From positions 1 through 64,000 of the forward strand of contig JAUMXB010000009.1 of assembly GCA_030529365.1 (NCBI GenBank): DNA of 64,000 bases. The letters run 5' to 3'. The notes beneath the pieces were generated by a model. That model did not search any database, was not told the DNA's origin, and saw only the letters and a program-made list of their open reading frames with translations. Made by a program: the position numbers and the translations under genes. The DNA comes from Cardiobacteriaceae bacterium (lineage in GTDB: Bacteria; Pseudomonadota; Gammaproteobacteria; Cardiobacteriales; Cardiobacteriaceae). Below, piece after piece: positions 3,960 through 39,938 of this stretch (positions are counted from its first letter, which is position 1; each line of letters opens with the position of its first letter).

Positions 3960-5019
3960 GTAGGGACGTAGCCTGCTACGTCCTAAACCGGATCGCCGAC
4001 GTTTTCAAAACGGACGTTGCGGGCAACGTCCCTACAGCAATTCCCAAAACCTGCGTATTCCCAAACAAGCATCGTTTCCCCACACCCGAGCCAAATCCGC
4101 CCATCCACCAACCCCCACCGCACCGCGTAGGGACGTAGCCTGCTACGTCCTAAACCGGATCGCCGACGTTTTCAAAACGGACGTTGCGGGCAACGTCCCT
4201 ACAGCAATTCCCAAAACCTGCGTATTCCCAAACAAGCATCGTTTCCCCACACCCGAGCCAAATCCGCCCATCCACCAACCCCCACCGCACCGCGTAGGGA
4301 CGTAGCCTGCTACGTCCTAAACCGGATCGCCGACGTTTTCAAAACGGACGTTGCGGGCAACGTCCCTACAGCAATTCCCAAAACCTGCGTATTCCCAAAC
4401 AAGCATCGTTTCCCCACACCCGAGCCAAATCCGCCCATCCACCAAATCCCACCGTACCCCGTAGGGACGTAGCCTGCTACGTCCAAAAACAAGCCCGCAT
4501 CATATCCACAGACGTTGCAGGCAACGTCCCTACAATCCACACCGAACCCGCATTTTCAAAACGGACGTTGCAGGCAACGTCCCTACAATCCGCACCGAAC
4601 CCGCTTTTTCAAAACGGACGTTGCGGGCAACGTCCCTACATCCGTGCCATCATCAACCCCCGGCAAATTCTCCGCCTGCCGTCAAAACCCGCGTAAATCC
4701 TCCTATCCACCAACCCCCACCGTACCCGTAGGGACGTAGCCTGCTACGTCCCAAATATTTGCCATGACATTTACCGAACGTTGCGGGCAACGTCCCTACA
4801 GCAATTCCCAAAACCTGCGTATTCCCAAACAAGCATCGTTTCCCCACACCCGAGCCAAATCCGCCCATCCACCAACCCCCACCGCACCGCGTAGGGACGT
4901 AGCCTGCTACGTCCTAAACCGGATCGCCGGCGTTTTCAAAACGGACGTTGCGGGCAACGTCCCTACAATCCGCACCGAACCCGCATTTTCAAAACAGAGG
5001 TTGCAGGAAATTTCCCTAC
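3960..5019. repeat. Large GTAG-hairpin (REP) array with a 167-bp tandem repeat
   Basis: No gene lies in 3812-5121. There are fifteen REP units. Plus (stem GGACGTAGC): 3960, 4127, 4294, 4461, 4728, 4891. Inverted (stem GGACGTTGC): 4012, 4179, 4346, 4510, 4563, 4616, 4776, 4943, and a degenerate one at 4996. The first plus/inverted pair plus ~90 bp of spacer is repeated in tandem with a constant period of 167 bp (3960, 4127, 4294, then 4461 begins a diverged unit). A further partial copy of the same spacer lies at ~4777-4970. Confidence 0.9.
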
Positions 5020-37395: not shown

Positions 37396-37429
37396 TGCGC
37401 CCGCGCCTTTACCCCCCCCCGACAGAAAC

Positions 37430-38092
37430 ATGAACCTCGCTGACCGCCCCATCCTCACGCCGCCCGACGGCCACAAGAAAGTCCTGTTGCATTCCTGCTG
37501 CGCCCCGTGCTCGGGCGAAGTCATGGAAGCCATGCTCGCCTCCGGCATCGACTACACCATCTTCTTCTACAACCCCAACATCCACCCGCGCAAAGAATAC
37601 CTCCTGCGCAAAGACGAAAACATCGCCTTTGCCGAAAAGCACAACGTCCCCTTCATCGACTGCGACTACGACACCGACAACTGGTTCGCGCGCGCCAAAG
37701 GCATGGAATGGGATCCCGAACGCGGCCGGCGTTGCAGCATGTGCTTCGACATGCGCTTCGAGCGCACCGCGCTTTATGCCCACGAACACGGCTTCCCCGT
37801 CATCACCAGCTCGCTCGGCATCAGCCGCTGGAAAGACATGAACCAGATCAACGAGAGCGGCATCCGCGCCGCCGCGCCCTACCCCGACGTGCAATACTGG
37901 ACCTACAACTGGCGCAAAGGCGGCGGCAGCCAGCGCATGATTGAAATCAGCAAACGCGAGCACTTCTACATGCAGGAATACTGCGGCTGCGTTTACTCCC
38001 TGCGCGACACCAACGAACACCGCATCAAAACCGGACGCGGCAAAATCAAAATCGGCGTCATGTACTACGGCGACGAGCAAAAAGAGAAATGA
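37430..38092 (+). CDS. queH: Epoxyqueuosine reductase QueH
   Basis: The 220-aa product has the QueH cysteine signature: [30 protein letters not shown] and EYCGCVYSL, all likely Fe-S ligands. It reduces epoxyqueuosine to queuosine in tRNA wobble positions, replacing QueG. ATG 37430 lies 9 bp after a run of nine Cs (37412-37420) and has no clear Shine-Dalgarno sequence. The stop codon TGA is part of element copy 11. Confidence 0.93.
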
Positions 38093-38180
38093 GAAAATTT
38101 CTCACTATAAAGCGCTTATCGTGCAAAAATTTCTCATTAAAAGCGCTTCATGATGATAAAAAACCTCTATTTTTTACTAT
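38090..38180. repeat. AAGCGCTT intergenic element (copy 11)
   Basis: Two cores at 38110 and 38141 (31 bp), TGAGAAAATTTCTCAC before, GATAAAAAACCTCTATTTTTTA after. It contains the queH stop. Confidence 0.85.
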
Positions 38181-38274
38181 TTTTTGAAAATTAACGCACA
38201 ATAGGCTTCCGCCGCCATCACTTCGCGACCGACGTCGATTTAATGCGCACATCGCCACATGCCCCACTTCCCGC

Positions 38275-39282
38275 GTAGGGTGGGTGTCAACCCACCATCG
38301 CGAAACGATCGCGCCCAAAAATTGCAATACACCATCACACAACGATGTTGTAGGGACGTAGCCCGCTACGTCCCGAAACTTGCATCTACATGGACGTTGC
38401 CAGCAACGTCCCTACATCACCAATCTACACATGCAACGTGGAAAACAACTTCGCTATAGCCAAATAAAAAACAGAACGAAACTGTAGGTTGGTGGTGCAT
38501 TTCGGCAGGCTCAATATCCGCCGTCAGGCGAACCCCAACATAATGAATTCTAAAATGTTGGGGTTCGTGCTGCGCACTCACCACCAACCTACGGTCTGGA
38601 CGTTTTTATGATGATTTCACTATAACCGCGTGCGCACTGCCCAAAAATCCCTATCCCCCTGTAGATTTAATGTCGGCCACAAAGTGGCCGACCTACAAAG
38701 ATGCGCACATCGCCACGTGCCCCGCTCCCGCGTAGGGTGGGTGTCAACCCACCATCGCGAAGCGATTGCCAAAAATTGCAATACACCATCGCGCAACGAT
38801 GTTGTAGCCCGACGTCGGTTTAATGTCGGCCACAAAGTCCGACCTACAAAGATGCGCACATCACCACCTGCCCCGCTCCTGCGTAGGTGGGTGTCAACCC
38901 ACCGTCGCGAAGCGATTGCCAAAAATTGCAATACACCATCACGCAACGATGTTGTAGGGACGTAGCCCGCTACGTCCCGAAACTTGCATCTGCACGGACG
39001 TTGCCAGCAACGTCCCACATTCCCAATCTAAAACACTGTGGAAAAACGGCATCGCCAACCGCGTGCGCACCGCCCAAAAATTCCTATTCCCCTGTAGAGT
39101 TAATGTCGGCCACAAAGTGGCCGACCTACAAAGATGCGCACATCACCACGTGCCCCGCTCCTGCGTAGGGTGGGTGTTAACCCACCGTCGCGAAGCGATT
39201 GCCAAAAATTGCAATGCACCATCGCGCACCGATGTCGTAGCCCGACGTCGGTTCCATGTCGGCCACAAAGTGGCCGACCTAC
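38275..39282. repeat. Mosaic of several GTAG-hairpin families, gene-free
   Basis: No gene is credible in 38093-39572. Hairpins all begin GTAG. Family 1, stems GGACGTAGC/GGACGTTGC: 38350-38373, 38392-38415, 38954-38977, 38995-39017. Family 2, GTCGGCCAC/GTGGCCGAC ending CTAC: 38672-38696, 38825-38847 (decayed), 39104-39128, 39258-39282. Family 3, GTAG then GGTGGGT/ACCCACC: 38275-38296, 38732-38753, 38882-38903, 39164-39186. Families 2 and 3 sit in a unit with gcgaagcgattgccaaaaat, repeated at a spacing of ~150 bp around 38732-38882. Confidence 0.85.
38455..38624. mobile_element. Long-hairpin MITE-like element (copy A, shortened right arm)
   Basis: Begins TATAG and ends CTATA; inside are GTAGGTTGGTGGTG and its inverse CACCACCAACCTAC. 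The middle folds as CGAACCCCAACAT/ATGTTGGGGTTCG. It shares nearly all of its sequence with 57203-57397 but lacks ~15-20 bp of the right arm. Confidence 0.78.
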
Positions 39283-39393
39283 AATCCTTTTGCGACGGAC
39301 GTTGCAAACAACGTTCCTTACGCGACCACCCACAAACATAAGCCCGACACCCAAAACGCCAGCTATTAATGGCCAACTTGCAAACACACCAAT

Positions 39394-39572: not shown

Positions 39573-39938
39573 ATGAAAAACATCCTCCATCTCATCCGCG
39601 GACGCGAAGGTGAATCGCTCGCCGCCCGCCATTTGCAGCAACACGGCCTGAAAATTCTCGCCCGCAATGTGCGCATCGGCGGCGGCGAGCTGGATCTTGT
39701 CTGCCAGGAAGGCGCGACCATCATCTTTGCGGAAGTGCGGTTGCGGCAAAGCGGCGGTCTGGTTGGCGCCGCCGAATCCATCACGCCCGCCAAGCAGCGG
39801 AAATGGCGCAGTGCCGCCAGCGCCTATCTGCAAAAACATTATCCAGCCTTGCCCGACTGCCGCTTCGACGCCATCTGTATCGAACGCGGCAGCGACGGCA
39901 AGGCGCAGATCGAATGGCTGCGCGGCGTGGAAATATAG
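39573..39938 (+). CDS. yraN: YraN/UPF0102-family nuclease-like protein
   Basis: The 121-aa product has GREGESLAARHLQQHG, GGGELDLVCQEG and IIFAEVRLRQ, which together form the endonuclease-fold core (Glu, Asp, Glu-x-Val) of this family. A role in DNA repair or recombination is suspected. ATG 39573 fits family starts. Confidence 0.88.
   Translation: MKNILHLIRGREGESLAARHLQQHGLKILARNVRIGGGELDLVCQEGATIIFAEVRLRQSGGLVGAAESITPAKQRKWRSAASAYLQKHYPALPDCRFDAICIERGSDGKAQIEWLRGVEI

Follow-up and report, generated by a model that had tools for sequence, protein, structure and literature searches.

A mosaic array of GTAG-tagged REP hairpins from at least three families in a Cardiobacteriaceae genome

We analysed the first 64,000 nucleotides of contig JAUMXB010000009.1 (assembly GCA_030529365.1) from a Cardiobacteriaceae bacterium; this whole stretch is referred to as the window. 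Positions 38275-39282 form a gene-free segment that holds an array of hairpins. The segment is preceded by queH (epoxyqueuosine reductase, 37409-38092, plus strand; PF02677, 215 bits) and followed by a UPF0102 gene (39573-39938, plus strand; PF02021, 86 bits). The array comprises four hairpins of the GGTGGGT type, five of the GGACGT type (two with a worn tag), four of the GTCGGCCAC type (one worn) and one element of 109 bp with GTAG at both feet. The three stem types and the long element that an earlier note on this DNA had placed here are present and tagged with GTAG, with the tag of the GTCGGCCAC hairpins on the minus strand only (CTAC at 38693-38696, 39126-39129, and 39279-39282). For the GGTGGGT type, the tag is on the plus strand, and for the GGACGT type it is found on either strand. 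Of all GTAG/CTAC occurrences in the window, 23 of 259 lie within 38201-39360.

The array opens with a GGTGGGT-type REP (GTAGGGTGGGTGTCAACCCACC; 38275-38296, plus). A REP of the GGACGTAGC type (38350-38374, plus) and an inverted one of the GGACGTTGC subtype (38392-38415, minus) then form an opposed pair. The long element, which reads GTAGGTTGGTGGTG ... CACCACCAACCTAC and contains an inner 13-bp hairpin, spans 38484-38592 and belongs to a dispersed paired repeat. It is followed by a GTCGGCCAC REP (38672-38696, minus), a GGTGGGT REP (38732-38753, plus), a worn GTCGGCCAC REP with one side of the stem shortened (38825-38847, minus), and a shortened GGTGGGT REP that lacks part of its stem (38883-38903, plus). 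Another GGACGTAGC REP (38954-38978, plus) faces a GGACGTTGC hairpin whose exact tag is lost (38996-39015, minus). The last members are a GTCGGCCAC REP (39105-39129, minus), a GGTGGGT REP (39165-39186, plus), a GTCGGCCAC REP (39258-39282, minus), and a worn GGACGTTGC hairpin, again with a degenerated tag (39295-39317, minus).

The GGACGTAGC and GGACGTTGC copies are arranged as opposed pairs, like REP dimers, and both opposed pairs and mixed clustering are features of BIMEs. Within the array, long direct repeats extend over 215 nt at 94% identity and 98 nt at 97%, which suggests that mixed units were duplicated locally as the mosaic expanded. A tandem cluster of inverted GGACGTAGC/GGACGTTGC REP pairs lies elsewhere in the window, at 3960-4966.

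The window also contains another repeated palindrome, AAGCGCTT, with 46 copies there and 352 in a sample of 463.5 kb, where it is the commonest 8-base palindrome. Pairs lie at 38110/38141, 39415/39446, 39997/40028, 51331/51362, and other places in the window, and 81 of the 99 neighbouring pairs less than 60 bp apart are spaced exactly 31 bp. Copies outside ORFs of at least 150 aa number 212 of the 352, with such ORFs covering 87% of the sample. For the arrangement AAGCGCTT-N23/24-AAGCGCTT, the counts are 433 in this genome, 407 in a sister genome, 8 in one relative, and 0 in nine others. Palindromes resembling TGAGAAATTTCTCA alternate between the copies. No published account of the AAGCGCTT repeat was found in the portions of the literature that our search returned.

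REP elements are small bacterial repeats that are thought to be spread by a domesticated transposase family. The earlier note had asked whether GTAG precedes hairpins more often than by chance. We counted perfect hairpins (stem of at least 7, loop of 2-8) in 463,500 of the 2,296,621 bases of the genome, a non-random sample made up of the window and 20 stretches on contigs named by earlier hits, and used 20 approximate dinucleotide shuffles as the control. GTAG stood at the foot of 80 of the 496 hairpins, whereas the shuffles averaged 2.8 and never exceeded 5, so that the excess is about 29-fold. Among the 256 tetranucleotides it ranked first beside hairpins, and the second, TAGG, overlaps with it. 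The tagged stems were distributed over the GGACGT class (36), the GGTGGG class (21), GTCGGCCAC with its variants GTCGGGCAC/GTCGGCCAT (7 and 11), and others (5). Most of the tagged stretches (59 of 80) lay outside ORFs of at least 150 aa. Across the whole genome, exact-pattern searches returned 18 GGACGT, 19 GTCGGCCAC, and 41 GGTGGGT hairpins and none for the reversed patterns; looser lists of family members, which were mostly noise, were kept out of the counts. The families thus have the dispersed and mainly extragenic copies of REPs, with GT(A/G)G at one foot of the palindrome.

The stems, of about 6-13 bp with a short loop, are preserved by paired changes. For families whose members were chosen by GTAG and the left arm only, we scored the pairing of the two arms and repeated the scoring with the arms slid by one base. 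In the GGACGT family, 80 of 104 cells paired, versus 22 when slid either way. The values were 63 of 91 for GGTGGG (slid controls 38 and 32) and 84 of 126 for GTCGGCC (58 and 26), the score of the latter being lowered by a mixture of 2- and 3-base loops in the set. Some changes affect both sides of a pair, for example from A-T to T-A or from C-G to G-C. At one stem pair of the GGACGT family, 6 distinct sequences have T-A and 5 have A-T, and at one of the GTCGGCC family, 4 have C-G and 5 have G-C.

A candidate for the enzyme behind these repeats lies about 37 kb from the array. At 824-1369 on the minus strand, an open frame of 181 aa encodes a RAYT, a TnpA-REP-like HuH tyrosine transposase with HVH at residues 86-88, WQ at 142-143, and the catalytic Tyr at 163. 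REPs of the GGACGTAGC/GGACGTTGC kind lie on its 3' side (685-814) and, in both orientations, on its 5' side (1456-1807); GGACGT REPs alone are found at its flanks. The GGACGTAGC family has its putative cognate RAYT next to its own REP. On both sides of the gene are frames (143-661 and about 2017-2478) that we take, from their leader sequence, to be type IV pilin-like. A search of this genome with the Y1_Tnp model PF01797 returned only an IS200 TnpA, which pointed to REPs that have no RAYT; this reading was abandoned when NF047646 returned the gene in the window and a broken one on contig C7.

NF047646 (REP_Tyr_transpos) matches the window protein with 68.7 bits (E 4.9e-19), under the curated cut-off of 80. 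As this model seems to be centred on the other RAYT lineage, the low score weakens the family label and not the mechanism. The only match among PDB sequences is E. coli TnpA-REP (4er8, E 5e-8), which also ranks first among PDB folds for an AlphaFold2 model (E 1.6e-7, TM 0.56/0.61; mean pLDDT of the model only 69). In the 4er8 alignment, the E. coli residues that contact GTAG, W94, Q95, E100, H101, and R104, are all identical in the window protein; the list is taken from PMC6006769, whose available text leaves the role of W94 unclear. Both histidines of H86-V-H88 and Y163 are invariant in four aligned proteins, and relatives from Pleurocapsales, Xenococcaceae, and Calditrichia have the same two histidines, WQ, and tyrosine. 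The fold and the HuH and Tyr residues are thus shared with the E. coli enzyme. In contrast, the window RAYT stops shortly past the tyrosine helix and apparently lacks the E. coli C-terminal extension, and E. coli REPs carry a bulge whereas the array REPs are mostly perfect stems.

The broken gene on contig C7 belongs to a second RAYT lineage; one intact and one broken RAYT were thus found in this genome. A GTAGGATGGGC hairpin adjoins the broken copy, and the stems around this copy (GGATGGGC) are somewhat different from GGTGGGT. In two other Cardiobacteriaceae genomes (G004 and G009), four intact RAYTs of the other lineage, 22-28% identical to the window RAYT, are all flanked by GTAGGG(T/C)GGG hairpins (4 of 4). 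The GGTGGGT family is tied to its candidate RAYT partner by related stems only, with the gene broken here and intact in relatives. The sister genome (G001) has an intact second-lineage RAYT (NF047646, 205 bits, above the cut-off of 80). At this locus (L002:1900-2660), imperfect GTAGG(T/C)(G/A)CGGTTA hairpins precede the RAYT and add one more stem type to those that carry the GTAG tag.

When species genomes were scanned with the REP pattern GTAGGGACGTAGCNNGCTACGTCC, 103 stretches matched, from Cyanobacteria, Melainabacteria, Bacteroidetes, Calditrichia, Melioribacteraceae, Chloroflexi, Spirochaetes, Cardiobacteriaceae, and others. Three of the 103 carry a relative of the window RAYT (E up to 1e-4), with 44, 42, and 32% identity. 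In the first two, from cyanobacterial genomes found through the REP pattern alone, the same GTAGGGACGTAGC REP lies 44-102 bp from the RAYT; in the third, the REP is more than 2 kb from the gene. The cyanobacterial RAYT genes at L078:4930-5577 and L120:1780-2370 each contain an apparent in-frame REP copy (peptides like RDVACYVPT), and a REP inside a RAYT gene has been published for subclass 2.4 (PMC6006769).

In a further search, drawn from four Cardiobacteriaceae genomes and 18 of the GTAGGGACGTAGCNNGCTACGTCC loci, two of which share a genome, 17 of 20 genomes had a RAYT relative. We assembled 27 RAYT loci, 21 of 30 from this genome search and 6 from the NF047646 search; the nine dropped loci repeated the same gene, adjoined one in use (L151), or held a lone fragment (L132). 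A GT(A/G)G hairpin lies within 400 bp in 23 of the 27, against 34 of 300 random stretches from the sample of this genome. Since most of the distant genomes were found via the REP pattern, which makes their adjacency conditional, a control in REP-selected loci was added (65 of 300). The four loci without a hairpin by the strict rule are L011, L014, L125, and L139, of which two have weaker ones.

Stem similarity tracks RAYT similarity over 22 loci (Mantel r 0.57, with none of 5000 permutations as high), a test that ignores shared ancestry and is supporting only. For this test, 23 loci were entered and L011 fell out as it has no qualifying hairpin, with L014, L125, L139, and L147 left out. As the stems follow two RAYT lineages, each with its own stem, the idea of a single enzyme for all families in the earlier note is unsupported. 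Its companion idea, that stems are free to drift, finds support within families, where the paired changes occur, and none between them, where stems track the RAYT lineages.

No RAYT was found beside the GTCGGCCAC hairpins or the element at 38484. Among 274 genomes of the class, the GTCGGCCAC type is present in this one only, and it occurs in 2 of 12 relatives; with so narrow a distribution, no cognate RAYT can be named. The 38484 unit of about 109 bp is dispersed, with 32 single-arm copies here and 120 in the sister genome, and its arms are frequently paired in opposition at a spacing of 73 or 95 bp. Both are probably REPs that either no longer have a RAYT or have one in sequence missing from the assembly, which comprises 32 contigs and is 96.6% complete. 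According to the portions of PMC3686654 available, abundant REPs are quite often without a RAYT, through loss, pseudogenes, or switched REPs. Hence, a missing partner is to be expected here.

We consider it very likely that the segment is a mosaic, BIME-like cluster of at least three GTAG REP families, each spread now or formerly by its own RAYT. The proposal in the earlier note that an enzyme reads GTAG plus a fold agrees with the RAYT/TnpA-REP system, and such a gene is in the window, flanked by one hairpin type. By analogy with published work on relatives, from which binding, cleavage, and mobilisation are inferred, such a HuH/tyrosine enzyme would bind the single-stranded REP hairpin, read the GTAG foot, and then cleave and rejoin the adjacent DNA. 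The GGACGTAGC family would be served by the intact RAYT at 824-1369, and the GGTGGGT family by the second lineage, of which the broken gene on contig C7 is the sole copy found in this genome. Local duplication may afterwards have given rise to the repeated mixed units. The tag, the hairpins, their copy number, the RAYT gene with its flanking arrangement, and its catalytic and GTAG-contact residues are direct observations on this DNA.

Alternatively, a single RAYT might read GTAG plus any hairpin and spread all stem types. Only one intact RAYT was found in the genome, although it contains three or more stem families, and no separate partner was found for GTCGGCCAC. Certain foreign REPs are also substrates of the E. 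coli enzyme if their bulge is right, but the same report finds that stem and loop positions matter in the assays it describes (PMC8266576, consulted text). Moreover, stem similarity follows RAYT similarity, the intact RAYT is flanked by GGACGT REPs only, and GGTGGG stems adjoin a different RAYT lineage in relatives, which makes this explanation improbable. A related idea is that the lone intact RAYT of the genus is relaxed and sustains non-cognate GTAG families in trans, including the orphan GTCGGCCAC, with GTAG plus any fold as the signal in vivo; we regard this as a long shot.

That an IS200/IS605-type TnpA rather than a RAYT moves the repeats is the least likely of the explanations weighed here. 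Such enzymes use tetranucleotides at the hairpin foot as guides (PMC8266576, consulted text), and one intact TnpA is present on contig C17 of this genome (G000; L001:1426-1950, NF033573 with 156 bits). However, the 3.4-kb locus L001 around its gene showed no array of these REP types (with flanks scanned less closely than the RAYT loci), whereas the RAYT gene has REPs on both sides. With the REP transposase model, the C17 TnpA reaches 34 bits, against a cut-off of 80. The window protein, in turn, gives no NF033573 match at E up to 1 and reaches 15.5 bits with PF01797 (cut-off 23). The hairpins could also be transcription terminators or other selected RNA elements beside which GTAG is coincidental, as they lie between co-directional genes and REPs have been proposed to act on mRNA ends (PMC3733652, available text). 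Against this, no T-run was seen by eye after the hairpins, tandem mosaic arrays and RAYT flanking are atypical of terminators, and the GTAG excess is large. We judge this very unlikely as the main explanation, and a secondary role of this kind is possible.

With the mosaic of REP families as our reading, the array falls into a known class. The tag and the idea of a RAYT as its reader rediscover a published system (Nunvar 2010; Di Nocera 2013; Corneloup 2021). Di Nocera 2013 (PMC3733652) describes GTAG-tagged palindromes as a super-family of 24 families, with several per genome in some species, clusters, dimers, and RAYT flanking. As far as the texts of PMC3733652 and PMC2817692 were available, the array shares with this super-family the GTAG foot, the short palindrome, high copy number, mainly intergenic location, opposed dimers, mixed clusters, several families per genome, and a REP-flanked RAYT. 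In Table 1 of Nunvar 2010 (PMC2817692), the Haemophilus parasuis sequence GTAGGGTGGGTCTTGACCCACC is identical to a REP of G004, the H. influenzae sequence GTAGGGTGGGCTT(c/t)AGCCCACC is identical to one of G009, and Thioalkalivibrio GTAGGTCGGCCTTCAGGCCGAC is close to the GTCGGCCAC type. The exact stems GGACGTAGC and GTCGGCCACTTTGTGGCCGAC have no match in the available text of these two papers, consensus figures aside. According to Corneloup 2021 (PMC8266576, consulted text), E. coli TnpA-REP depends crucially on GTAG in vitro, whereas the reading of stem or loop features varies by group.

Judged by motif and neighbours rather than by the profiles of the authors, the window RAYT resembles TnpA-REP subclass 2.4/RAYT group 4 as described in the available text of PMC6006769. 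Common to both are NHVH, WQ, a patchy distribution that includes Cyanobacteria and Bacteroidetes, and long REPs whose stems have G-C pairs at their base; the cyanobacterial relatives also share double-foot REPs and REP insertions within the gene. The tyrosine motif is YILGNP in place of the YIxNNP of the subclass, and the HuH-Tyr distance is 77 residues versus a median of 88. From the same bacterial family, the Cardiobacterium hominis REP Chom-18 (PMC7709200, PMC10306069) is G-rich (GGTGGG...CCCACC) and has the same form as the G004 REP GTAGGGTGGGGCTTGCCCCACC; these papers, in the parts available, concern oligonucleotide structure and not the array. In the available text of the RepRanger paper (PMC12306157), GTAG appears in the reference list only.

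As the hairpins are REP elements of a well-described sort, the array is real but ordinary, and it leaves the picture of REP biology unchanged. It adds a Cardiobacteriaceae genome in which at least three REP families coexist with two RAYT lineages, one of them broken. With one tag on three unrelated stems, it provides a compact case in which RAYT specificity could be tested.
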